DNA of 21,785 bases from a virus, in IMG/VR virus record IMGVR_UViG_3300032299_000339, positions 1 to 21,785 of that record; one strand, written 5' to 3'. The position numbers and the translations under genes are program-made. This document shows, one piece after another, positions 1-18,871 of this stretch; position 1 is the stretch's first letter, and the number at the start of each line of letters is the position of its first letter. A model generated the notes under the pieces. It saw nothing but the letters and a program-made list of their open reading frames with translations, was not told where the DNA came from and searched no databases.

Positions 1-771
1 GTTTCCTATGATGAATACATACAACTTATGTTAAGAACATCAGACCTTACAGTATTGGACTTAAACCCCTCCCTATGGAAGTCGTGGATATATGACTTGG
101 AAGGACAAGAGGATGTAAATTACAATATCACAACCTATAAAGACAATCCATTTTTATCAGAGGTTCAGGTCAAAGAGATTGAGAAACTACAACACAGAGA
201 TCCGAACCTGTGGAGGGTATTTGGCTTGGGTGAGAGAGGACTTCCCACCAAAATGGTATTCTCACATCAACAGAAGTATTCAACCTTACCAGAGGGGTCT
301 AAATTGCTTGGTTATGGAATTGACTTTGGATTCCAAGACCCTTGTACTCTAATCAAAGTTCATAAGTTTAATGATGCGATATATTGTGAGGAGTTATTAT
401 ATCTACGGAATATAACCATACCTGACTTCATCTATAAGATAAAGGACTTGGGGATAAACATTAAAGATGATTTCATCTGTGATAGTGCTAATCCCCAATC
501 TATTGAAGAATTAAGAAGACAGGGTATAAACGCAAAGCCAGTAAAGAAGAACTCCATATTACACGGAATTGACCTAATAAAACGAAGTGAGTTTTTTATT
601 CATAACACCTCCACAAACTTGGAGAATGAATTGATGAATTACATTTGGAAGACAGACAAAAATGGTAATAATTTAGACGAACCACTAGACGATTATAACC
701 ACTTGATTGACCCACTACGATATGTCCTTGAGATGAAGATGTTTAGGAATACAGGAACATTCGTATATTAA
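1..771 (+). CDS. terL: Terminase large subunit, C-terminal part (5' end outside window)
   Basis: The frame is open from base 1, so the gene begins upstream; the ATG at 28 is internal and not the true start. The visible 257 codons cover the end of the ATPase domain and the whole nuclease domain of a large terminase, the motor that cuts and packages phage DNA into proheads. The segment with NITTYKDNPFL followed by the LGERG motif is the usual link between the two domains. The RNase H-like nuclease shows its three acidic residues in order: Asp in YGIDFGF (base 322), Asp in ICDSANP (base 481) and Asp in NHLIDPLRY (base 709). Family knowledge places this in the Terminase_3/PBSX-like group. No small terminase gene is visible; it may lie upstream. 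A 33-base gap with an AT-rich motif separates it from the tail genes. Confidence 0.93.
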   Translation, partial: VSYDEYIQLMLRTSDLTVLDLNPSLWKSWIYDLEGQEDVNYNITTYKDNPFLSEVQVKEIEKLQHRDPNLWRVFGLGERGLPTKMVFSHQQKYSTLPEGSKLLGYGIDFGFQDPCTLIKVHKFNDAIYCEELLYLRNITIPDFIYKIKDLGINIKDDFICDSANPQSIEELRRQGINAKPVKKNSILHGIDLIKRSEFFIHNTSTNLENELMNYIWKTDKNGNNLDEPLDDYNHLIDPLRYVLEMKMFRNTGTFVY

Positions 772-1539: not shown

Positions 1540-1562
1540 AAAAAATGATGAAAACAAAATGA
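805..1562 (+). CDS. Tail assembly chaperone, probable -1 frameshift fusion
   Basis: The first part (805-1299, 165 codons) is an acidic, helical protein typical of the upstream half of a tail assembly chaperone. It ends at GAIFF over a run of ten T's. The second part is read one frame back, from GTG 1299 to TGA 1562 (87 codons), and contains a pattern I recognise from the downstream half of such chaperones: GGFSQFWGYYIWISQLAD, then VTSQPLVLCLNHLSYLMD. A -1 slip on T TTT TTG would yield about 252 aa. Such pairs (lambda G and GT) bind the tape measure before tube polymerisation. The end of the -1 frame overlaps the next gene's start in an ATGA junction (1559-1562), which supports the -1 frame being translated. 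The alternative is a homopolymer-length error in the assembly (T11 or T8 would give one continuous frame). Confidence 0.72.
1289..1299 (+). other. Slippery homopolymer, candidate -1 ribosomal frameshift site
   Basis: Ten consecutive T's (1289-1298) followed by G give the heptamer T TTT TTG in the zero frame (1293-1299), which fits the X XXY YYZ rule for -1 slippage. Slippage moves reading from the 805 frame into the frame that ends at 1562. I did not find a convincing stem-loop immediately 3' by eye. Homopolymer length is also a common assembly error, so read support matters. Confidence 0.65.
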
Positions 1563-2938
1563 CACAAACAGTTCAAGGTCTTAATCTAAAAAATATTGTA
1601 GATGACTTTAGGTTATTAGCAGACAGACATAAGCAAATCAATTCATATGGATTTGGTGATTTGGATGAGTTCACCTATCAAGTGGATAGAAGGGACAAAC
1701 AGGACAACCTATCAGACCAAGCCCCATATTATCCATATTTCTATGTTATTCCTTCTAATGTAATTCAGGAGTTCAACTTTATGACTTATGAGTTTAACTT
1801 GATTGTATCAGATATAATGAAAAGGGATATGGATAATATGACCGATATTTTATCAGATACTTTACAAATGATGAACGACATTATATCTATGTTCCGTTTG
1901 TCTTATACAGAGGCAAATGGTAATTATAACGAGTTTTATTTTGTTGATGATGTTGTTACTATGATTCCTTTTATTGAACGATATGAGGACTTATTATGTG
2001 GTTATTCTGCGACTTTAAGAATTAAGACAAAAACTCCACTTGATAGATGTGTGGCAGCATTTAATCAGTTCCCCGCTGACCCTTGTGTATCACCAACACC
2101 AACTCCATCTATTACTCCAAGTCCAACTCCAACACCAAGTCCTACTCCACTTGCTAGTGGAACAACTGAAGCAAATGCATATTTGAGAGCAGTTGTTGAT
2201 GCGGGAGGTACTGGTATAACTCCAACTGTATCTGCGGCGACTGTTACATTATTTACATCTTTGGTAAGTAATGGATTGTATGATGGTATGAAGGCGTTTT
2301 ATCCAATGTTAGGGGGTAATAGTAATGGTTGTAAGTTCAATGCTAAAAATCCCGTTGATACAAATAATGCGTATAGATTATCCTTTAATGGTGGTTGGAC
2401 TTTTAACTCATCTGGTTCTACATCTAACGGAACAGATGCTTATGCTGATACATTCTTGGCACCATCTGCGATGACATTAGACAACGTACATTTGAGTGTA
2501 TATCTATCTAATAATGTCAGCCTTGCGTCAAATAAAACTTATATAGGAGCATCAGAAATATTTGGAGGTAATAGGATTCTTTCTATTGGGAACAATACGC
2601 AACAAAGATATGTGTATAACTTAAATAACGTCATTCCATCTGTACCAGCATTGACTGCGGATACACAAGGTTTCCTTTTAGCATCTACTACGGGTATAAC
2701 AAGTAATGCATTGTATAAAAATGGTACAATCTTGAATACAACAGAAGTAGGAAGTAGAACATCAATACAGTTCAACATTCTTATTGCGGCTCTAGGTAGT
2801 GGTGGTGGTGTAACAAACTATTACTCAAACGAGTTTACTTTCGCTACTATTGGTTCAGGATTGACAGCATCACAAGTATCAACATTATCAACAATTATTA
2901 ACACATTCCAAACAACATTAGGAAGAAATACATATTAA
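1559..2938 (+). CDS. Tail terminator-like protein with Pro/Thr linker and LamG-like C-terminal domain
   Basis: Residues 1-175 resemble the tail terminator (tail completion) family that caps the tail tube at its junction with the head. The visible pattern is an N-terminal helix, the YYPYFYVIPSNV strand, a FNLIVSDIMKRD segment and SDTLQMMNDIISM, followed by a beta-rich end with Cys. Residues 177-198 are a short Pro/Thr/Ser linker. Residues 199-459 form a beta-rich domain with the LamG-like pattern common in phage fibres: [27 protein letters not shown] and a closing FQTTLGRN. This domain is paralogous to the end of the gene at 16978. Terminators are usually about 130-200 aa, so the extension more than doubles the protein. 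It starts in an ATGA overlap with the chaperone fusion, consistent with coupled translation. The terminator role is moderately sure; the ligand of the extension is unknown. Confidence 0.68.
   Translation: MTQTVQGLNLKNIVDDFRLLADRHKQINSYGFGDLDEFTYQVDRRDKQDNLSDQAPYYPYFYVIPSNVIQEFNFMTYEFNLIVSDIMKRDMDNMTDILSDTLQMMNDIISMFRLSYTEANGNYNEFYFVDDVVTMIPFIERYEDLLCGYSATLRIKTKTPLDRCVAAFNQFPADPCVSPTPTPSITPSPTPTPSPTPLASGTTEANAYLRAVVDAGGTGITPTVSAATVTLFTSLVSNGLYDGMKAFYPMLGGNSNGCKFNAKNPVDTNNAYRLSFNGGWTFNSSGSTSNGTDAYADTFLAPSAMTLDNVHLSVYLSNNVSLASNKTYIGASEIFGGNRILSIGNNTQQRYVYNLNNVIPSVPALTADTQGFLLASTTGITSNALYKNGTILNTTEVGSRTSIQFNILIAALGSGGGVTNYYSNEFTFATIGSGLTASQVSTLSTIINTFQTTLGRNTY
2087..2152 (+). repeat. Pro/Thr/Ser linker-coding repeat
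   Basis: This short degenerate repeat of SPTPTP-type codons joins the terminator-like domain to the LamG-like domain (residues 177-198). It is the shortest of five such tracts in the window. Confidence 0.8.
2153..2935 (+). repeat. LamG-like display domain, copy 1
   Basis: This region encodes residues 199-459 of the terminator-like protein and is paralogous to 17842-18615. By hand alignment about 85% of the first 108 residues and of the last 32 residues match. The central part, roughly residues 310-425, is strongly diverged. Confidence 0.85.
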
Positions 2939-2950
2939 ATTAAATAACCT

Positions 2951-3499
2951 ATGTGGGAAGGAACAAAAGACGAACTACAACAATTAGGTGAGGTGTTTGT
3001 AGAACACTACCAACAAATACTCACCCAAAAGAAATACCCTTTTGGTAATCCAAATCAAAAAGGGATGGGGAACAAGTATGCGACTGGTAATTTATACAAT
3101 AGCCTCAGTGCTAGAGTGGTCGGTACTGGTGATAATATGCAATTAGAAATATCTTATGCTAATTATTACAAGAATGTCAATTTTGGTAGAAGACCTGGTG
3201 GTAAAAAAGTTCCTATTAAAGCACTTATAGAATGGATTAAAGTTAGGGGATTAAAAAAGAGAGATGCTAAAGGTAGATTTGCCAAGGGTGGTATAAGGAG
3301 TTTGGCATTCGCAATACAGACAAATATTCATAAGTTCGGTATTAGACCTGCTAATTTATTTGATAAAGCCTATGACTCGTTGGAGGAAGTATTAGAAAAT
3401 CCACCACCATTTTTACAGGAGCAATTTACACAACTATACGACGCAATAGGTAGAGATGTGGAAAACTTTATTGATAATACAATAACAAAAGAAATATAA
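2951..3499 (+). CDS. Tail completion / HK97 gp10-like neck protein
   Basis: This 182-aa protein has the layout of HK97 gp10-like tail completion proteins, which act at the head-tail interface during joining. The N-terminal helix is followed by a TGNLYNSLSARV segment, a beta pair ending in ISYANYYKNVNFGRRPGGKK, a short PIKALIEWIKVRGL helix and a basic stretch. A long C-terminal helical region follows, with a NIHKFGIRPANLFDKAYD motif. The ATYANY/FGRRPGG arrangement is the characteristic part. It follows the terminator-like gene after 12 bases without a Shine-Dalgarno, so the two neck genes are probably co-transcribed. No signal peptide, membrane segment or Pro/Thr linker is seen. The assignment rests on pattern recognition only. 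Confidence 0.6.
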   Translation: MWEGTKDELQQLGEVFVEHYQQILTQKKYPFGNPNQKGMGNKYATGNLYNSLSARVVGTGDNMQLEISYANYYKNVNFGRRPGGKKVPIKALIEWIKVRGLKKRDAKGRFAKGGIRSLAFAIQTNIHKFGIRPANLFDKAYDSLEEVLENPPPFLQEQFTQLYDAIGRDVENFIDNTITKEI

Positions 3500-3509
3500 A
3501 GTATATAAA

Positions 3510-5186
3510 ATGAGTTTCAACCTAACAATATTACAGAGCCCATTATCGGTTACGGAGACCCACTCCGACCACACTTGGAATGTTGCATTAAATAGTTATT
3601 CAGCATACACCGATATTAGATTGGTTGTAGACATCTATAAGAACCCGTATCAGAACGATTCAGGCCCAAACAATACCACAGGGACAACACAAGAATATGG
3701 TAAGATAGGACGACTACTAATACCCTCCAACGAGTTTGGTAATTGTATCTTTAATGTTGAAACAATTATTAGGAATATTGTTAAACCAAATCCTCGTAAT
3801 ATGTCTATGATTTACAACACCACTACTGGTGAAGCAGAATCAGACCCTTATATTGTATCCGTAACAAACTCATTATTAGTAAATGTAGACCAAGAAACCT
3901 CACAAGCAACAATCAATAACTTACCTATCAATTTCATAAGTTATTCTAATGGTTTCAACGGAGGTTATGAAGGGTTTGAGAATATCTATCAGGTTAATGA
4001 ATATCGTTTGATATTTGGGGTTCAATATACATCAGGTAGTACGACAACACTTATCATAGATACAACGAACTACGGGGTTTATTCAGGGTTTACAGGACAA
4101 ACTATAAGTCCAGCAAGTGCGGCAACCCAACCATACGGAGTAATGGTATGGCCTGGCGTTCAAGACAACAAAAGATATGCTGTATCAAACAATCAAGCAC
4201 TAACATATTACTATTCAGGTTTCAATAAGAACGGACAATATAACTTTTGGAATACAAAGGTCTATGATTTTGCTATGAATACCGGTATTGTTCCATTCAA
4301 TATTTCTGGTAGATTTATGGGGACATTTGGTGAGGAAACAAAACCTATGACTATATTGGGAGGGTCAGTAATACAGACAAGATATAGAAGTCATTATTAT
4401 ACTTGTCCTATTGTATTAGGATTTATGTATGGGGAGAATGAGTTATTCAATAATTCATCTGTCATCAATTCTGTAAGTATATTACAGAAGACAGGTACAA
4501 ACTCACAATTAAACTACGATGTAATCTATTCACAACCTATTTCATTTACCCCAAATCCAACTGGTTATAATTCATTTTTAGGACAGAGAATAGCCTATGT
4601 AAATTGGAAACAAAACCCCCTATTTAGAACGAATAGTGATGTAGCGATATACTTGTCTAGTGGAGGTTGTGATACAAATTGTACTAGTGGTGTATCAGAA
4701 ATAGTACAATATAAGATGATGGATGAGGAGTGTTTCAACGACCCTGTTAATTTCTTGTTTATCAATAGAAATGGGGTATGGGATACATTTACCTTCACAA
4801 AGAAAAGTCAGTTTGCCAAGACCCCAAGTAAGAAGATATACGGGTCTCAAAAGACATTAAACTCTACTATATGGAATATGCAGAGTTATGACTCAAGTGA
4901 GACAGTATATTATGGAGATGCGATTGAGTTTATGACTGTGGCATCTAACTTTGTTAAACAGAATGATGTAGATATAATTGAGGAATTGATTTTATCCCCA
5001 ACTGTATATGTAATAAAAGATGATTGGACGCCTGAAAACAACCAACCACTTATTTATCCATATTTAATACCAGTTCAAGTATTAAACAAAGAAGTAAAAA
5101 AGTATCAACAGAAATATGACAGAGTATTTCAGTATGAATTAGAATTGAAATTAACACCTTACAGACAATATAACCTACCTTACTAA
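3510..5186 (+). CDS. Tail-tip / baseplate structural protein, unnamed family
   Basis: This is a 558-aa, Asn/Thr/Tyr-rich, predicted all-beta protein with no membrane segment. Residues 1-100 start MSFNLTILQSPLSVTETHSD and contain an edge-strand pattern like a carbohydrate-binding or distal-tail fold. Around residues 410-440 it has DEECFNDPVNFLFINRNGVW, then DTFTFTKKS, a motif I associate with conserved tail-tip proteins of Bacteroidota siphophages. The C-terminal 70 residues (IIEELILSPTVYVIKDDW, then KYDRVFQYELELKL) look like a final conserved beta module. Its stop codon directly abuts the ATG of the next gene, so the pair are translated together and probably assemble together at the distal tail end. 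The exact role (distal tail protein or hub partner) cannot be settled from the sequence. Confidence 0.6.
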   Translation: MSFNLTILQSPLSVTETHSDHTWNVALNSYSAYTDIRLVVDIYKNPYQNDSGPNNTTGTTQEYGKIGRLLIPSNEFGNCIFNVETIIRNIVKPNPRNMSMIYNTTTGEAESDPYIVSVTNSLLVNVDQETSQATINNLPINFISYSNGFNGGYEGFENIYQVNEYRLIFGVQYTSGSTTTLIIDTTNYGVYSGFTGQTISPASAATQPYGVMVWPGVQDNKRYAVSNNQALTYYYSGFNKNGQYNFWNTKVYDFAMNTGIVPFNISGRFMGTFGEETKPMTILGGSVIQTRYRSHYYTCPIVLGFMYGENELFNNSSVINSVSILQKTGTNSQLNYDVIYSQPISFTPNPTGYNSFLGQRIAYVNWKQNPLFRTNSDVAIYLSSGGCDTNCTSGVSEIVQYKMMDEECFNDPVNFLFINRNGVWDTFTFTKKSQFAKTPSKKIYGSQKTLNSTIWNMQSYDSSETVYYGDAIEFMTVASNFVKQNDVDIIEELILSPTVYVIKDDWTPENNQPLIYPYLIPVQVLNKEVKKYQQKYDRVFQYELELKLTPYRQYNLPY

Positions 5187-8100
5187 ATGAGTTTACAAAT
5201 ACGGACACTAGTATCAGGGAAATATAAGTATCTTGACTTATTTGATGATGAGGACATCTTAATGTCTTTTTCAGTTGGGGAAATCCAAGACATAACATCA
5301 AAAAACTCAAGTTATTCTAAATCATTCACTTTACCAGGAACAAAGAATAATAACGAGATATTCAATTATTTTTATGATGTCAATTCTGTTCCTTTGGATT
5401 TTGACCCGAATGATAAGTTTGATGCGATTATATCTTGGGATGGTTATGAGATATTAGTTGGAAATATTCGTTTGGATGGGGTTACAATACAGGGTGAAGA
5501 TTTTACTTATCAGATTACATTTTATAATCAAGTTGGTAATTTAGCAGCAAACATAGGGGATAAGTTTTTAAGACAAACTGACCTATCACATTTATCACAC
5601 CCCTTTACAGAACAAGTTATATTACAATCAAATGTGGATTATAACCTGTTTCCAATAACAGGTGCCACAAACTATTCATATCAGAATGGTAAGACGATGT
5701 GGGGATTATACAACATAGGTTATTCTTATTCAGGTAATTCACCATTCATACAACCTGAAATAACCCCTTTGGTAGAGTTTTCTGATTTATCAGGATTAAC
5801 ATATACACCAAAGTTCGGTCATTTTGATTTTTCAGGAACCCCTGTTAATGATTATTATTTTAAGCCAACAATACAAATCAAAGAATTATATTCAAGTATA
5901 GTTCGTGATGCGGGGTATGAGATACAATCTGATTTCTTTGATACATCTTATTTTGAGAGATTTTATTTACCACTCAAGTTTTTAGATGAAACAGTATATT
6001 CAAGAAACGCTATAATACCCTGTTATACTTATGAAAATCTTGGGTTCTTTTTTTCAACAAGTCCACAAAGTGCTTCAACAAATCCAAGTTCAGGAGTAAT
6101 TTGTAATACACTTAATTTATCAGCAACTACAGAGTTTATCAATATCCCCACATTTTTTGCGGGGGCATATACATTCAAGTTTAGTTATACCGCTCAAAGA
6201 AATCTTTTTAGTGGTTGTAGTTTTACTATTATCAATACTGGCCCTGGTAATTTACAATATGAATATGTTAATTCATCGGGGGTTAGAATTATTGGATTCA
6301 TTCCAAGTGTAGACATAGGACTTCCATATACCCAACTTGGTGAGTTTCTTGGAATAATAAGTGGTAATGGAACAGTCACTAATGAAACTAGTTCTGATGT
6401 ATCATTATTTTTTAATGATTATACTAGTACTCAAGTGCTTCGGGAAGATGGACTTTGTAATAATGAAACATCAACTACACAAGTTGAGTTCACAAAGGAT
6501 TTTAATTTTACAGGTAATTCTACTATACAATTTTATTTTTTTGGAACAAACGCAACAATATCAAACTTCAAGTTTGAGATATTCACTGGCCCAAGATTTT
6601 TAGTGTCGGGTCAGACATTTGATTATGCTTTGGAGTTCCCCGATAATGATTATAAACAAATAGATTTTATAACATCTATTAACAGATATTTTAACTTGGT
6701 TGTTGTTCCAAGTCCTGATAAACCTAACACTCTTATTATTGAACCTATTGTAGATTACTTTGGAAAGGGTGAATTATTAGATTGGACGACAAAAGTAGAT
6801 TATAACCAACTACAATCATTATCCCCAACAACATCTTTAATAAATGGAACATTACAGTTCAATTTTCAATTAGACCAAGATTATGCCAATCAGGATTTTA
6901 AGACCGCATCTAACAAGGTATTTGGAACTGATAAAATCAATCTAAATATTCCATATAAAAACTCCGAAACTAACTTTACCTACATATTCTCGTCTCCTAT
7001 TGACATAACCATCAATAGCGTACAGAGTAATTATTTGACACTATCATCGTTCTCAAAAATCAAAAATACTGATGTTACTGGTACGACTTTACAACAGTTC
7101 CAACCATTCAAGATATTACCTCGTGTTGTATTTAGGGGATTGACTTTACCATCATTAAACTATGGATTTGTGGGGACTGGTTCAACACAATTACAAACTT
7201 GGTATGTTAGGTCATTTGGGACAACATATCCCCAAACAAGATTTACAAACATCAATAGATTCACAACTTATCCTTTTAATTATAGTGGTTTTTCTCATTA
7301 TATTAACTTTAGAGGAGAAGACCTTACTACCATTCAACCGAGAGAGTTTGAGTTCGTAGCGGAGGACTTATATGACATCTATTACAAAGATTATATTGAT
7401 GACCTAATCAGTCCTGAAAATAAGATATACAAACTAAAAATATACCTTACCCCAAATGAGGTAAAATCACTTTTATTTAATGAAACAATACTAATTAAAA
7501 ACTCATTATTTAGGATAAATAAAATAGATAATTTTAATTTATTGGAACCATCTATTTGTGATTTAGAACTAGTCAAACTTACAAAAACCTATGACGAACA
7601 TAGAGTTCTTTATTATGACTTAATCCCTTGTGTATCGGGGTCTACAAGATATAGTAATTCTGACTTAAATTATAATCTATACGCATACATAGGTGGTTTT
7701 GTGACCTTATATGATGATGATATAAATGCGTTGGGGTGTCATCAAGTAATTCAAGGGTATTACAACGAAAATAATAATTATCAGCATTATTATATTTCTT
7801 CAGGATTTACGCCCAATTTTGCGAATGTTTATAATGATTGTAATTGTACTGGTTTCACAGCATTTAATGTAGTTCAGGATGGTTCAGTTGTTCCACCAGT
7901 GCCAACTCCTACTCCAACAGCAACAGTGACACAGACACCAACATCTACACAAATACCATCACCAACACCTACAACTACTAGTACTCCTACTGAAACCCCA
8001 ACTCAAACACAAACTCCTACTAATACTGCTAGTCAGACATCAACACCTACTGAAACTCCAACTCAAACTCCTACAAATACTGCTACTCAAACCCCTACTA

Positions 8101-9413
8101 ATACTGCTAGTCAAACATCAACCCCTACTGAAACTCCAACTCAAACTCCAACTCAAACTCCTACTAATACTGCTACTCAAACTCCTACTAATACTGCTAG
8201 TCAAACATCAACCCCTACTGAAACTCCAACTCAAACTCCAACTAATACTGCTACTCAAACATCAACACCTACTGAAACTCCAACTCAAACACCTACTAAT
8301 ACTGCTAGTCAGACATCAACACCTACTCAAACACAAACTCAAACGCCTACTAATACTGCTAGTCAAACACCAACAACAACTTTACAAATTACCCAAACTC
8401 CAACGATTACTAGAACATCCACCCCGACCCCGACGATTACTCCAACTCAAACACAATTCCCAATTTGTCCCGAACAAATTATTGTATCAGCATCAACTGC
8501 CGTTTCTGCTTATACTGGAACTTATGACAGGATATACTCTTATACTGGTGGGTCATTTAATTTCGCATTCTATCGCTCATTTAACGCCACTTGGGCGTTT
8601 GACGTTCCTGATGGTTCAGGTGCGTTTGGTGTTATATATGGAAGACAAAGTGGGTCTAATTATTTCACGATATATAACAGAATATCCGCATCTGGAGGGT
8701 CTATGGGAGTATATGGTATTACCACAACCACAGGTAGTTATGCTGTGAATCAGAGCGGATTTGGATTAGGATTTAATTTTGGTAGTCCAACAGTAATAGG
8801 AAATATACTTTACCCTAGTCGTGGATTACAAGGAACTTCATTCTATAAATCGTATCCATCAGTTTGTCCAACCCCAACACCAACCCCAACACCAACCCAA
8901 ACTCAAACACCGACTAATACCCAAACCCCAACCCAAACTCAAACTCAAACACCTACCAATACTGCTAGTCAAACTCAAACACCTACCAATACTGCTAGTC
9001 AAACAAGTACCCCAACTCAAACTGGTACAGCAGTAGCACCATCACCATCACCAACCCAAACACCATCACCAACAAGTAATCCATATTGTTATACAATAAC
9101 ATCGCAGCAAAGCGCTCCTGGTGAATGTTTTGATTGTCCTGGATTTTTCGCAAGCACAACGGATACAATTATAGAGTTCTTTGATGGTTGTAGTGGAACT
9201 ACAATATCTGCTCCATTTGATATGAATGTAATAGCACATTATAGTGATAGTTCAACAGGAGCTACATACATATCTGGTGGAACAGTTGGTAGTGTAGTTA
9301 TTGCTACAAGTGATATACAATGTGCTCCACTACCTTCTTGTGGTGAGGTCGCAAGTCCAACATTTGACTTCCTTACTATATCAGGTGGAACTATTAGTGA
9401 ATGTTGTTCGTGA
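5187..9413 (+). CDS. Large tail-tip protein with two Pro/Thr linkers and two C-terminal surface domains
   Basis: At 1408 aa this is the largest protein in the window. Residues 1-900 form a beta-rich core. The N-terminus carries [20 protein letters not shown], then [17 protein letters not shown] and a segment ending [11 protein letters not shown], a signature I associate with baseplate-hub or tail-tip proteins of Bacteroidota phages. Residues about 903-1091 are a low-complexity linker of [20 protein letters not shown]-type repeats. Residues about 1092-1227 are a Gly/Tyr/Ser-rich beta domain bounded by Cys (FPICPEQ to PSVCPTP). Residues about 1228-1296 are a second linker, and 1297-1408 a Cys-rich domain with 8 Cys, duplicated in the next gene. 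The core probably sits at the tail end, with the terminal domains projecting towards the host surface. The receptor is unknown. A C-terminal Pro/Thr architecture this long is unusual for a tail-tip core protein. Confidence 0.68.
7893..8457 (+). repeat. Long Pro/Thr/Gln/Asn linker-coding minisatellite
   Basis: About 565 bases of imperfect tandem units encode [16 protein letters not shown] and TQTPT blocks. Codon third positions vary between units (aact, aacc and aaca for the same residues). That indicates selection on the protein together with older repeat expansion. Confidence 0.9.
8868..9074 (+). repeat. Second Pro/Thr/Gln linker of the large tail-tip protein
   Basis: About 207 bases encode [14 protein letters not shown]-type repeats, including two adjacent copies of an ACCAATACTGCTAGTCAAAC block. 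The tract separates the Tyr/Gly-rich domain from the final Cys-rich domain. Confidence 0.88.
9069..9413 (+). repeat. Cys-rich terminal domain duplication, copy 1
   Basis: These 345 bases align without gaps to 9839-10183, with 41 mismatches by hand count (about 88% identity). They encode a 112-aa domain with Cys at [27 protein letters not shown] and ECC. Confidence 0.92.
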
Positions 9414-9460: not shown

Positions 9461-10183
9461 ATGAGTTGTATAACATACCTACATAATGACCCTTTTGATA
9501 GTGGTGGAACGAAGTTTATATCAGGAACTACTTGTAATGGTTCCGCAGAATCTTATAATCTCACCTTTGGTAGTTTTGCGTGTATGGAAGCGGAACTACC
9601 ATTAGTAATATGTGATGGTTTAACAATATCAGGATCTTGTATTCCTATTTTAACATCTCCAACACCAAGTCCAACCAATACGGCAACTCCGACACCAACA
9701 ACACAAACTCCAACCAATACACAAACTCCAACTCCAACTCCAACATCTGGTGAAACAACCCCAACACAAACACCAACAAATACACAAACACCAACAAATA
9801 CACAAACCCCAACTCAAACAACTACTAGAACTCCTACACCAACAAGTAATCCATATTGTTATACAATAACCAATTCGCAAAGTGCTCCTAATGAATGCTT
9901 TGATTGTCCTGGATATTTCTTCACTACAACAGATACGACTATAGAGTTCTTTAATGGTTGTAGTGGAACTACAATACCCGCTCCATTTAATATGAATGTA
10001 ATAGCACATTATAGCGATAGTTCAACAGGAAATACCTACATATCTGGTGGAACAATTGGTAGTGTAGTTATTGCTACAAGTGAGGTACAGTGTGTTGCAC
10101 CTCCTACTTGCGGTGAGGTGGCAAGTCCAACATTTGACTTCCTTACTATATCAGGTGGAACTATTAGTGAATGTTGTATATGA
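9461..10183 (+). CDS. Secondary tail surface protein: Cys-rich N-domain, Pro/Thr linker, Cys-rich C-domain
   Basis: This 240-aa protein has three visible parts. Residues 1-64 are a small Cys-containing beta module (ISGTTCNGS, GSFACMEA, VICDGL, GSCIPI). Residues 65-128 are a TPTPTNTQ-type linker. Residues 129-240 are an 8-Cys domain about 88% identical at DNA level to the end of the preceding gene. It looks like a stand-alone accessory version of the tail-tip protein's tip, arising by tandem duplication. It may attach to the tail tip through its N-domain and present a second copy of the display domain. There is no signal peptide, as expected for an intracellularly assembled virion protein. The high Cys content is unusual and may mean disulfides formed after release, or metal binding. 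The function is an inference from architecture and position. Confidence 0.6.
   Translation: MSCITYLHNDPFDSGGTKFISGTTCNGSAESYNLTFGSFACMEAELPLVICDGLTISGSCIPILTSPTPSPTNTATPTPTTQTPTNTQTPTPTPTSGETTPTQTPTNTQTPTNTQTPTQTTTRTPTPTSNPYCYTITNSQSAPNECFDCPGYFFTTTDTTIEFFNGCSGTTIPAPFNMNVIAHYSDSSTGNTYISGGTIGSVVIATSEVQCVAPPTCGEVASPTFDFLTISGGTISECCI
9652..9844 (+). repeat. Pro/Thr linker of the 240-aa surface protein
   Basis: About 190 bases of imperfect repeats encode [12 protein letters not shown]-like units. They join the N-terminal Cys module to the duplicated Cys-rich domain (residues 65-128). Confidence 0.88.
9839..10183 (+). repeat. Cys-rich terminal domain duplication, copy 2
   Basis: This is the partner of 9069-9413: the same length, no indels and about 88% identical. 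The last 60 or so bases before the final codon are almost unchanged, while differences cluster in the first third. Confidence 0.92.
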
Positions 10184-12371: not shown

Positions 12372-14411
12372 ATGAAAATCGTAGAATTACTCATAGACGA
12401 AGATTTTGAGGAATCAGGGATAGAAGCAATATCTTTGGTAGGTAGTCCCGCTCACGAGGAAAATTGGATTGCCTTTAATAATGAGGACGCACCCACCCTT
12501 GATGACAACTCTATAACATATAGAATTGTGGAGGATGACTTCTGTTCTTCTAATCCTCTTTTAGACACATTAGGGGAGTCCTACAACGACTTAATTAGTC
12601 AAGGGTGGGTGATTAGTCGTGTAGAACAGATGAACCCCGAGAGGATACTTAAAATGAGCCGTGAGAGGTTCTCCGATCCAAACGCTGAATCATACGAAGA
12701 TACAGTCCAATTTAGAATCAGATTCAAGTATGTTGGGCCGAGGGACAATAAGAATAGAAAGTTCTGTGCTGATATGTTGGCAAAGAACAGAGTGTATAGA
12801 ATAGAAGACATAGAACAACTATCAAACCCCGAGTTTGGTAGTTATGATATATTCACTTGGAGAGGTTCATTCAACTGCAGACATACTTGGGTTAAATTGG
12901 TATTCCAACCAGAAGGTAAGATTAGAAACTCTGGTGATTCAACGAGAGGTCTAATACAAACAGACCCATTATCAACAAGATTACAACCTGATACAAGACC
13001 AGGTGCTACAATACGATCCGCCGATGAGGGAAAAGGTCAAGGTCAGTGGGAGGAAGGAATGCCAAGAACAGGCCCTAACTTGTTTGCTGAAATTGGGCCA
13101 AGGGGAGGTATTAAAAAATCAGATAAAGCCCCAAAGTCAGATACACCAAATCCTAAACCTGCGGGTGAAGGAACGGCAAAAGGTAAAGCGACTGGTAAGA
13201 GGGGTGCTGTTGTAAGTGCCGAACAAGAAAAAACCTTACAAAAAAAGGTTGATGATTTTAATGAAAAAGATAGTAATACCAAGAATGGTCGTGCTACATT
13301 AGGAGCGTTGAAGTCAGTATTCCAAAGAGGTCTTGGAGCCTATAATGTATCACATTCACCAACAGTTCAATCATCAGAGCAGTGGGCTTATGCTAGAGTT
13401 AATGCATTTTTATATTTATTGAAAAATGGGAGACCAGAAAACAAAAAATATACATCTGATTTTGACCTATTACCGAAAGACCACCCAAAGGCAGAAAAGA
13501 TGTCTGTTGATGGTTATGTAATATGTGATGAGTGTGGTTGGGAATGGCAAATTAAAGATGGTGGTGATGAACCATTCATCTGTCATAAATGTGGATACGA
13601 CAATTCACCAAATAGTTTAACCGAAGATAATTTTGTTGAAGCCATAAGTGATTATCCTGAAGGTGTAAAGAATGCTGCGGCAAGAGCGGTCAAATACGCA
13701 GAGGAGAATGGTTGGGGTTCTTGTGGAACGCAGGTAGGAAAAACGCGAGCATCGCAATTAGCCAAGGGTGAACCCATTTCAGTTGACACGTTGAAGCGGA
13801 TGTATTCCTATTTATCAAGACATAAGGTTGATTTGGAGACATCAAAAGATTACAAAAGTTCCTGCGGAAAATTGATGTATGATAGTTGGGGGGGTGAAGC
13901 CGCATTAAGTTGGTCTGAAAGAAAACTCAAACAACTTGAAAACGAAAAAATGACTTTTGCTGTCGCTAGTGAAGACAAGATGATTATTGTTGGAGCAGCG
14001 ATGATTCCAAATAAGATGATACATAGATATGATATGTTTGGAAACAAATATTATGTCTATTTCTCAAAGGATTCTATTAGAAAAATGGCTAATAGATTCT
14101 TAAAACAAAAAAGGACTGACGAAACCTCCATAGAACATAACGGAATTAAGTTAGGTTCAGACAAGGTCTATGTTACTGAAAGTTGGATTAGTGAAGACCC
14201 CATCAAGGACAAGTCAGCCAATTATGGTTTTGAGTTGCCTGCTGGTACTTGGTTCGTCCAAATGAAAGTAGAAGACCCAAAAATATGGGAACTTGTTAAA
14301 CAAAATAACTTAAGTGGATTCTCTGTTGAGGGTCTATTCAAGGAAAAAGCAGTTTTTTCCAAACAGGAAGAACAAATAAACCAAATAAAACAACTATTAA
14401 AATCAATATAA
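12372..14411 (+). CDS. XkdF-like capsid maturation protease with large multidomain insertion
   Basis: This 679-aa protein appears to be a prohead protease split by about 480 inserted residues. Residues 1-40 (ESGIEAISLVGSPAHEENW) and 524-679 match the XkdF-like protease pattern: FAVASEDKMIIVGAAMIPNK, YYVYFSKDSI, TSIEHNG with candidate catalytic His589, and NLSGFSVEGLF with candidate Ser651. The insertion holds a domain with RKFCADML (Cys132), NRVYRIEDI and NCRH (Cys169, His171), which I have seen beside Mu-F-like head proteins. Next come a Gly/Lys-rich linker (about 190-280), a DUF5824-like region (about 280-377), a zinc ribbon (Cys385, Cys388, Cys404, Cys407) and a conserved module (423-520) with QVGKTRASQLAKGEPISVDT, LKRMYSYLSRH and WGGEAALSWSERKL. 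It lies before the scaffold and major capsid genes, as expected for a head-maturation protease. The protease assignment is fairly sure; the roles of the inserted domains are unknown. Confidence 0.78.
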   Translation: MKIVELLIDEDFEESGIEAISLVGSPAHEENWIAFNNEDAPTLDDNSITYRIVEDDFCSSNPLLDTLGESYNDLISQGWVISRVEQMNPERILKMSRERFSDPNAESYEDTVQFRIRFKYVGPRDNKNRKFCADMLAKNRVYRIEDIEQLSNPEFGSYDIFTWRGSFNCRHTWVKLVFQPEGKIRNSGDSTRGLIQTDPLSTRLQPDTRPGATIRSADEGKGQGQWEEGMPRTGPNLFAEIGPRGGIKKSDKAPKSDTPNPKPAGEGTAKGKATGKRGAVVSAEQEKTLQKKVDDFNEKDSNTKNGRATLGALKSVFQRGLGAYNVSHSPTVQSSEQWAYARVNAFLYLLKNGRPENKKYTSDFDLLPKDHPKAEKMSVDGYVICDECGWEWQIKDGGDEPFICHKCGYDNSPNSLTEDNFVEAISDYPEGVKNAAARAVKYAEENGWGSCGTQVGKTRASQLAKGEPISVDTLKRMYSYLSRHKVDLETSKDYKSSCGKLMYDSWGGEAALSWSERKLKQLENEKMTFAVASEDKMIIVGAAMIPNKMIHRYDMFGNKYYVYFSKDSIRKMANRFLKQKRTDETSIEHNGIKLGSDKVYVTESWISEDPIKDKSANYGFELPAGTWFVQMKVEDPKIWELVKQNNLSGFSVEGLFKEKAVFSKQEEQINQIKQLLKSI

Positions 14412-16977: not shown

Positions 16978-18618
16978 ATGATATTATTAAAATCCAACCA
17001 ACTTAATAAGATTGTTGTAACGCTCACACAGAATACAACTGTATGTGACCCTGAATACTTATTTCAATTTATTCATATATTCTCAAAAAAAGAGGTAGAT
17101 TTTATCTTGCCTGATGTATCACCGCATCCAACGAGATATAATCAATTTGAGTTTGTTGAAGGTCAGGGTGCGGGTCAAATAGCATTTCCTTATGAAGGTC
17201 AGTATAATTATTATGCCTATGCCCAACCATTTGGTTCGGGTAATCTAAATCCATTATTAGCCACCGAGTTGGTAGAAAATGGTATTGCCGAGTTTATTGT
17301 TGTAAGTGCGGATACAACAAATGAAAATTATTTTGAGTTTATTTCTGATGATGAGTTTAACTCTAATACCATATTTGCTCCTGATGAGATAAACCCTCCA
17401 ACACCAACTCCTACTGAAACTGCTACAAATACTCCAACACCAACTACTACTCCAACAAATACTCCTACCACTACTAGTACTCCAACTAATACACAAACTC
17501 CAACAACAACTCCTACAAATACTCATACTCCTACCACTACTAGTACTCCAACTAATACACAAACTCCAACAACAACTCCTACAAATACTCCTACAAATAC
17601 TTCAACACCAACAAATACTCCTACTCCAACAAATACTCCTACAAATACTTCAACACCAACAAATACTCCTACTCCAACAAATACAGAAACTCCAACTCAA
17701 ACACCTACGAATACCGAGACACCAACAAATACCCCTACTCCAACAAATACAGAAACTCCAACTCAAACACAAACTCCAACAAATACAGCAAGTCAGACAC
17801 CAACTCAAACACAAACACAAACACCAAGTTCCACTCCACCAGCAAGTGGAACAACTGAAGCAAATACTTATTTGAGAGAGGTTGTTGATGCGGGTGGAAC
17901 AGGTATTACTTCAACTGTATCTGCGGCAACTGTCACATTATTTACCTCTTTGGTTAGTAATGGATTGTATGACAAGATTACAGCATTCTATCCTCTATTG
18001 GGAGGTAATAGTGATGGTTGTAAGTTTAATGGTAAAAATCCCGTTGATACAAATGCGGGATATAGATTGGTCTTTAATGGTGGTTGGACTTTCAACCCAT
18101 CTGGTGCGACATCAAACGGAACTAATGCTTATGCTGATACATTCTTGGCTCCATCAGCAATAACCTTGAATAGTCAGCATTTAGGTATTTATCTTGCCAA
18201 TAATAGTGCTCCTACTGGGACTGGTAGAAATTACATAGGTGCCGCCGTACCGACTCCAAGATATTGTTCTATAGGGCAAGATGGAGGTGCGAATTGGTTT
18301 TATGGTTTGAGTTCTGCTGGTGGTGGTACTTCATCATCTAGCAGACAAGGTATGATTATAGCCGCTTCAAGTGGAGGAACTACTGACTCAATATACAGAA
18401 ATGGAACTGTATTTCATACTACTACTGGTGTTGTTAGAAGTGTTATAAATGTTTCTATTTATATCGCGTGTTTTAATAATAATGGAAGTCCACAACAATA
18501 TTACGCAAACCAATATAGATTTGCCACTATTGGTTCAGGATTGACCGCAGCAGAAGTATCCACATTATCAACAATTATAAACACATTCCAAACATCAATA
18601 GGAAGAAACGCATATTAA
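16978..18618 (+). CDS. Tail-associated protein with long Pro/Thr linker and LamG-like domain
   Basis: This 546-aa protein has three parts. Residues 1-138 are a beta-rich N-domain ([20 protein letters not shown], then [11 protein letters not shown] and YNYYAYAQ) that I have seen as a stand-alone or N-terminal domain in Bacteroidota phages without a known function. Residues 139-288 are a Pro/Thr/Asn linker with tandem DNA repeats. Residues 289-546 are a LamG-like domain paralogous to the C-terminus of the gene at 1559 ([27 protein letters not shown], ending FQTSIGRN). The N-domain probably attaches to the virion, with the lectin-like domain exposed to bind a surface glycan or receptor; this is an inference from architecture. 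It follows the tail tube gene and terminator and runs into the 83-aa gene one base later. Confidence 0.6.
17392..17841 (+). repeat. Pro/Thr/Asn linker with exact tandem DNA repeats
   Basis: About 450 bases encode TPTNTPT-type repeats. A 63-base block is exactly repeated at 66-base spacing (from 17461 and from 17527). A block of about 44 bases is exactly repeated at 48-base spacing (from 17593 and from 17641). Exact copies next to degenerate ones point to recent expansion or contraction. Confidence 0.9.
17842..18615 (+). repeat. LamG-like display domain, copy 2
   Basis: This is the partner of 2153-2935. The ends of the domain are conserved at protein and DNA level, while the middle (roughly residues 400-510 of this protein) is hard to align. 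That is the pattern expected when only exposed binding loops diversify. Confidence 0.85.
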
Positions 18619-18619
18619 A

Positions 18620-18871
18620 ATGGAACAACTTGTAGCAATACTCACAATACATCAAACAGATAGTTTAGTAGGACAATTAGTTTGTCCTGATGTATATTTC
18701 AATCCAACACTAGATGTGAACCAGGATTGGTTTATTTCAAGTGAAGAAATAGATAATTCAATTTATCCCGAGCACGAATGGGTTAAAGATTTAACATTAT
18801 CAGTTTATCAAGGGCCTTATGTTCCACCACTACCAACACCATTACCTTCTGGTACAACTATAAATCAATAA
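18620..18871 (+). CDS. 83-aa conserved small phage protein, function unknown
   Basis: It starts one base after the preceding stop codon, so it is probably translated by re-initiation. The 83-aa product contains LDVNQDWFISSEEIDNSIYP and EHEWVKDLTLSVYQGPYVPP. This pattern I recognise from small proteins beside tail fibre genes in Bacteroidota phages, where the role is not known. The C-terminus is Pro-rich (PPLPTPLPSGTT) and resembles the start of the window's display linkers, as if a linker had been truncated. No membrane segment is seen. It might be a fibre-attachment or assembly factor, but the sequence does not show that. Confidence 0.6.
   Translation: MEQLVAILTIHQTDSLVGQLVCPDVYFNPTLDVNQDWFISSEEIDNSIYPEHEWVKDLTLSVYQGPYVPPLPTPLPSGTTINQ

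Follow-up and report, generated by a model that had tools for sequence, protein, structure and literature searches.

The tail terminator forms a ring that caps the tail tube, as is established for gpU of phage lambda and p142 of phage T5. The available text on the p142 ring describes this capping for T5 (PMC11784142). Larger terminators with extra domains are also known, in which, according to the portions of the sources consulted, the additional parts contact the sheath or represent duplicated folds (PMC11784142; gp53 of phiCD508, PMC13324602), and a phage-like particle is documented to contain a duplicated terminator fold (PMC11784142). The solved terminators gpU of lambda, p142 of T5, those of Mu and P74-26, and gp29 of E217 share the fold and the place in the gene order with the N-terminal domain described here, but they lack a Pro/Thr-linked lectin-like domain.

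Carbohydrate-binding modules are found on several other virion proteins. In the lactococcal 936 phages they are carried by the neck passage structure, the major tail protein, and Dit, and like the modules described below they include the neck and vary among close relatives (PMC6669499). However, their anchors are not terminators and their modules belong to other families, and the available part of that source describes neither Pro/Thr linkers nor a linked partner gene. Phage Douge (PMC13033339) and the adaptor of roseophage R4C (PMC10276861) likewise exhibit accessory β-rich domains on capsid, tail tube, or connector. These domains assume an Ig fold, and the portions of both sources consulted describe no exchange cassettes.

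We analyzed a window of 21,785 bases that comprises one IMG/VR record (IMGVR_UViG_3300032299_000339) of an uncultured virus of bacteria; L-numbers denote the viral loci or contigs that were compared with it. Matches of its large terminase (TerL) and portal suggest that these are phages of Bacteroidota. The initial annotation knew of no well-described case of a tail terminator with a lectin-like domain, and searches of open-licence papers in PMC likewise showed none.

Domain structure of ORF 1559-2938

ORF 1559-2938 (plus strand, ATG start) encodes a protein of 459 amino acids. An N-domain of ∼173 residues with a predicted tail terminator fold (residues 1-173; 1559-2077, plus strand) is followed by a Pro/Thr linker that is evident from the sequence (residues 177-198, 22 residues; 2087-2152, plus strand, 66 bp). 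The C-domain of ∼261 residues (residues 199-459; 2153-2935, plus strand), delimited by profile boundaries, is predicted to be LamG/ConA-like. The initial annotation had proposed such an order of N-domain, Pro/Thr linker, and ∼260-residue C-domain, and all three parts are present at these positions. We use the name LamA for the C-domain family; copy 1 is the C-domain of this ORF, and a second copy, ∼60% identical, is located at 17842-18615 of the same window. The N-domain is recognizable in 44 loci, with 81-95% identity across 19 IMG/VR loci, and relatives of the C-domain occur in 37 loci, a recurrence that exceeds chance.

The AF2 model of the N-domain was built from 26 relatives and is of moderate confidence (pLDDT 73.6, pTM 0.71). 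A Foldseek search with this model returned lambda gpU as the top match (E 8.8e-4), followed by the terminators of A-1(L), Mu, P74-26, Milano, and T5, and by the R2 pyocin collar. Normalized by query length, the TM-scores to terminators amount to 0.4-0.5, and an E value of 0.001 is reached by only three matches. Superposition with gpU in VIA-align gave a Z score of 11.1 (rmsd 3.0 over 124 residues), whereas the first clearly unrelated proteins, prolyl-tRNA synthetases, score 7.3 and below. Identity in the terminator rows is 3-12%, so that the likeness is one of fold. No named family was found for the N-domain in Pfam, PHROGs, or NCBIfam, a result that is not decisive, since terminators share little sequence. 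A PDB sequence search gave no match.

Because the top structure matches are almost exclusively terminators, the initial assignment of the N-terminal ∼175 residues as a tail terminator is upheld by the predicted fold. A fibre or baseplate family, into which the N-domain might have been placed by the fold searches, was rejected; no such row stands near the top of either structure list, although absence is not proof, and the domain is placed with tail terminators instead. The neck passage structure of the 936 phages would be marked by a BppU-like collar domain at the N terminus; the N-domain matches terminators, and no BppU row was seen among its structure matches, an absence that is in itself no exclusion.

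The gene order provides further support. The C-terminal part of the large terminase (28-771, plus strand), identified by PHROG terminase matches and tblastn, starts the conserved order, and among portals, that of the cultured Nonlabens phages P12024S/L comes closest to the window's (27%). A search of P12024S with the N-domain alignment profile found gp41 (E 1.2e-5, 138 amino acids), and profile comparison of the two aligned 95 columns (probability 78%, E 1.7e-5). In P12024S, gp41 lies downstream of TerL (gp37) and immediately before gp42. The gene following the terminator in the window (2951-3499, plus strand) is a homologue of gp42 by BLASTP (E 3e-9) and gene order; we take it to be HK97-gp10-like, and a search by sequence found no solved structure matching it. 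The gp41 match and the TerL/gp42 order show that P12024S, a cultured relative, possesses this gene at the corresponding position, with no domain added to it. This order independently supports the assignment of the N-domain as a putative tail terminator, which agrees with the fold. Homology between ORF 805-1539 and gp38 of P12024S was also tried, but none was demonstrated.

Some further features of this region and of the remaining window were noted. Within ORF 805-1539, near the middle of the gene preceding the terminator, there is a run of ten T (1289-1299), where an overlapping ORF in a different frame (1299-1562) begins. Tail assembly chaperones have slippage or frameshift sites, and the ten-T run is a possible site of this kind. 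A 679-residue protein (12372-14411) matches head maturation proteases with its C terminus and the C-terminal part of the portal family phrog_33693 with residues 101-199; the separate portal ORF of the window matches the rest of phrog_33693.

The LamA model, built from 22 relatives, has a pLDDT of 85.0 and a pTM of 0.88 and assumes a LamG/concanavalin-like jelly roll. It aligns best with domain 4 of the arabinanase AbnA (Z 17.1). Trypanosomal sialidases follow with a Z score of 15.9, aligned outside the catalytic part as judged by residue range, and the tailspike of cyanopodophage Pan3 aligns with model residues 5-260, flanking helices included, at 15.6. Sialidases and the binding domains of clostridial neurotoxins, at 7-15% identity, make up much of the structure lists. 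Kinship with these was rejected and the likeness read as a common jelly-roll fold, since the arabinanase rows rank above them, a phage tailspike reaches an equal score, and there are close relatives among viruses. The nearest predicted viral proteins come from uncultured Caudovirales (42% identity, E 1.4e-30).

At the sequence level, no Pfam LamG or lectin model matched the C-domain at E values up to 1, a search that can miss a divergent member, and Pfam, PHROGs, and NCBIfam held no named family for it; PHROG 17104 (function unknown) matched weakly. A PDB sequence search gave chance matches only. Scans of one genome per prokaryote species contained no relatives of either domain, and neither the whole protein nor two distant N-domain relatives matched any of 50,697 phage records in tblastn. 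With variant LamA proteins as queries, only Flavobacterium phage FL-1 and Microcystis phage Mwe-JY13 matched, both of which carry LamA in the gene after the portal. The predicted structure bears out the LamG-like C-domain of the initial annotation and supports a LamG/ConA-like domain, which may bind sugars.

The variable 3′ end of the terminator gene

The DNA of L003, the nearest relative, is 95% identical to the window over positions 1-2141 and 92% identical over 2937-8286; in L003, the second stretch directly follows the first. The 795 bp between them (2142-2936, plus strand), a cassette delimited by blastn and the junction sequences, have no counterpart in L003. The 5′ break in homology at 2141 lies inside the Pro/Thr linker. 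The L003 terminator protein ends after its Pro/Thr tail, and the downstream gene is kept in place.

We compared the terminators of 45 loci (the 44 found plus the window). LamA is carried by four of them, namely those of the window, L065, L069, and L071. The LamA domains of L069 and L071 are identical over 157 residues, whereas that of L069 shares only 36% identity with the window and 33% with L065. These distances suggest that the three distinct domains of the window, L065, and L069 were probably gained separately. The other loci exhibit at least six other kinds of module, such as a DUF5122 β-propeller in L059 (E 1.7e-67), or none. L003 and L013-L016 possess a Pro/Thr tail only, L070 has a longer tail with a short end, and L077-L083 have neither module nor tail. 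The existence of module-free relatives (L003, L013-L016, and L077-L083) shows that the domain is dispensable. Six terminators run off contig ends (L009, L061, L064, L068, L071, and L075), and that of L021 is split into two ORFs.

In 24 of the 45 loci (among L059-L076 and L077-L082), the terminator domain is duplicated in tandem within one chain. This arrangement suggests a ring of three two-domain subunits instead of six, and six copies need not hold across the family. Given the extra-domain terminators and duplicated folds already on record, the tandem terminators are not unprecedented. In L070 and L072-L076, the terminator ORF additionally begins with a Cys-rich domain and a Pro/Thr linker ahead of the tandem domains, an arrangement that would allow display at both ends.

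LamA on other genes and its partner

To describe the modules beyond the terminator, 125 Pro/Thr-rich ORFs were split into anchors and modules by heuristic linker masking and clustering, with ATG starts only. LamA occurs on 11 anchor clusters, including a 1231-residue protein of L003 whose C terminus was inspected directly. A Pfam SOG2 match on the Pro/Thr proteins was rejected as low-complexity noise. LamA as a neck-specific whisker was also rejected, in view of the 11 anchor clusters. The initial annotation had placed the lectin-like domain at the neck, and its presence on the terminator stands; the domain is not specific to the neck, however, but exchangeable and also found on other genes of the virion region, including ORF 16978-18618. 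Its likeness to whiskers or neck fibres would be one of working in a similar way, not of membership.

The second LamA carrier of the window (16978-18618, plus strand) combines a different anchor (16978-17385) with a long Pro/Thr linker and LamA copy 2 (17842-18615). This anchor is 85-99% identical across the 17 loci in which 125 or more of its residues are present, and the modules that follow are LamA, a second type recognized by eye ("LQHWYLST..."), or others. The 1408-residue protein at 5187-9413 (plus strand) comprises an anchor of ∼900 residues, Pro/Thr linkers, and modules at ∼8466-8855 and 9087-9410; in L003, this anchor ends in LamA instead. The LamA of the L065 terminator is 74.5% identical over 216 residues to this L003 LamA on the unrelated 5187-type anchor, whereas its next best match reaches 37%. 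By sequence, one LamA sub-type is located on two different genes.

The neighboring 240-residue protein (9461-10183, plus strand) contains a Pro/Thr linker and another copy of the module that ends ORF 5187-9413 (cluster c29). The small Cys-containing end modules at 9087-9410 and in 9461-10183 are near-identical, possibly as the result of a recent gene-to-gene copy. Among L022-L058, many LamA carriers begin with 28-90 conserved, often basic residues ("MKWNGRNYRP...", "MPEVFYRK..."), which are possible virion anchor peptides.

LamA is usually accompanied by a small gene. In the window, this 83-residue partner (18620-18871, plus strand), recognized by co-occurrence and joint replacement with LamA, adjoins LamA copy 2, whereas the LamA of the terminator has no adjoining partner. 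With only ORFs of identical ends removed, the partner is located directly downstream of 24 of the 31 distinct LamA ORFs with a readable 3′ side (nine more are cut off), as compared with 0 of 34 Pro/Thr ORFs without LamA (19 more cut off). Counted by locus, it is present in 40/47 loci with LamA versus 0/54 without, where the 101 loci include overlapping pieces of the same contigs (e.g. L003 and L089) and near-identical contigs. The 37 loci fetched via the LamA domain are biased for LamA, not for the partner. Of the seven LamA loci without a partner, six are cut off near the gene end, and L051 has another small gene there.

The position of the partner can vary. It lies directly upstream of the LamA gene in L045 and L048, and immediately after the terminator gene in L065 and L069. 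All 15 loci with two LamA ORFs, several of them near-identical and all of them fragments, possess one partner gene, which would suit an action in trans. The Mantel correlation between LamA and partner (r 0.69, reached in 0/2000 permutations) is as expected for any two linked genes and is given no weight as proof. Searches of Pfam and NCBIfam found no family for the partner; an EF-hand-like stretch in it was seen by eye only.

Module and adjoining small gene are replaced jointly. The DNA of L090, L091, and L092 is 90-92% identical to the window up to 17.5-17.8 kb and 90.5-93% identical from 18.87-18.89 kb, and the stretch between these flanks is replaced, the 83-residue gene included. In L091, L095, L096, and L098, where the 16978-type carriers bear other modules, different small genes come next (two types by eye), and several module types may each have a partner of their own. 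Cassettes of a tail-fibre tip and a downstream chaperone or adhesin are known from T4 gp37/gp38 and Mu S/U. There, too, the binding module is exchanged jointly with the small gene that follows it, but the LamA partner has no Pfam or NCBIfam match, the LamA anchors are not known fibres, and the partner's role would correspond only by analogy.

Probable display at the neck and alternative readings

The computation shows both folds, the fusion, the presence or absence of the cassette in near relatives, modules on several anchors, and the joint replacement of the partner. We consider it probable that ORF 1559-2938 encodes a tail terminator that displays an exchangeable, probably adhesive LamA module at the neck, with cassettes being replaced and the partner aiding assembly. 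The N-domain would form a ring, presumably a hexamer, that caps the tail tube in the manner of lambda gpU and T5 p142. The short Pro/Thr linker would hold the jelly roll away from this ring in an exposed position, where LamA may act in multiple copies as a low-affinity binder of surface polysaccharides that aids the initial encounter with the host or its matrix, a role known from carbohydrate-binding modules of neck, tail-tube, and Dit proteins in other siphophages.

Linker and module would be replaced as a cassette, in several genes, by recombination within the linkers and at the gene ends. The available portion of one study reports that recombination exchanges variable genes in near-identical environmental phages; these domains are not described in it (PMC7468147). 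The LamA cassette would usually include the small downstream partner, which may help LamA to fold or assemble, possibly also in trans.

Described terminators bear on the orientation of the module. The C-terminal arms of the E217 terminator point outward (PMC10329688), and an arm of the Milano terminator reaches the outer sheath (PMC10491603), as the available parts of these sources state. Pointing the other way, the T5 study considers that p142 with a C-terminal tag might have this tag folded into the lumen (PMC11784142). The lumen of phage 812 is about 40 Angstrom wide according to the excerpt consulted (PMC12886913). Outward display is the better reading, because a lumen of this width could not accommodate DNA together with one jelly roll of 261 residues from each subunit. 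An adhesive role is suggested by analogy, since modules on neck and tail proteins of the 936 lactococcal phages bound host cells, with avidity proposed (PMC6669499), and Ig-like domains on capsid and tail tube of Douge bind mycobacterial glycans (PMC13033339), in both cases as given in the available text.

The displayed LamA might instead serve adherence to something other than the host, such as algal, mucus-like, or biofilm polysaccharides near hosts, or might stabilize the virion. The wide variation of modules among near-identical phages with constant anchors would fit this reading, as would the plant and animal glycan binders among the LamA fold matches, but the precedents with tested binding are host binders in the portions consulted (PMC6669499, PMC13033339), and we hold it to be unlikely, if the most credible of the alternatives. 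It is less likely again that the N-domain is a terminator-type fold with another virion role and that the true terminator is another gene. The N-domain is matched by fold and belongs to no sequence family, and several genes of the window are without assignment, whereas tail terminators occupy nearly all of the top rows in the structure lists and the gene order agrees with P12024S.

A similarly low likelihood, if anything slightly lower, is given to the C-domain being a polysaccharide-degrading enzyme rather than a binder. Some glycosidases have a jelly-roll fold, and the module of L067, on the same anchor, matches the catalytic domain of arabinofuranosidase B (E 4.9e-9), but the best matches of LamA are carbohydrate-binding and lectin-like domains, not catalytic ones.

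No other viral contig in the collection searched, which may omit near-identical records, contained the exact junction of the window (38-mer), so that this particular fusion rests on one contig. The initial annotation had allowed for an assembly error, yet we saw no such sign: a metagenomic chimera at the Pro/Thr linker, for which the repetitive nature of linkers, the singular junction, and the single record might speak, is very improbable, as the linker of the window measures only 66 bp, fusions of terminator and LamA recur on three other contigs (L065, L069, and L071), other terminator–module joins recur on separate contigs (L010-L012 and L072-L074), and the gene downstream of the fusion stays in place.

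The reading of a terminator with a displayed, exchangeable LamA may extend to the virion as a whole, which we put forward tentatively, at slightly below even chances. Many virion proteins would then draw on a common stock of modules on Pro/Thr linkers (lectin-like ones, propellers, and others), with cassettes moving between genes and phage lineages and one dedicated small LamA assembly factor acting also in trans. The terminator ring would serve as a platform for receptor display at the neck with six copies, or three where one chain contains a duplicated terminator domain.

Decoration of virions with domains of a carbohydrate-binding type is in itself known; new here are its putative anchor, the exchangeable Pro/Thr-linked cassettes, and the linked partner gene. 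The pair of the window and L003, with and without the domain between flanks of 95% and 92% identity, represents a natural experiment, and the partner gene offers a handle on the assembly of such domains. Exchange behind repetitive linkers makes similarity a poor guide for annotating the virion proteins of uncultured phages. If the cassettes are adhesins, the tail terminator is a testable display site, and these phages would change their adherence via C-terminal domains of constitutive virion proteins, and not by fibres alone.
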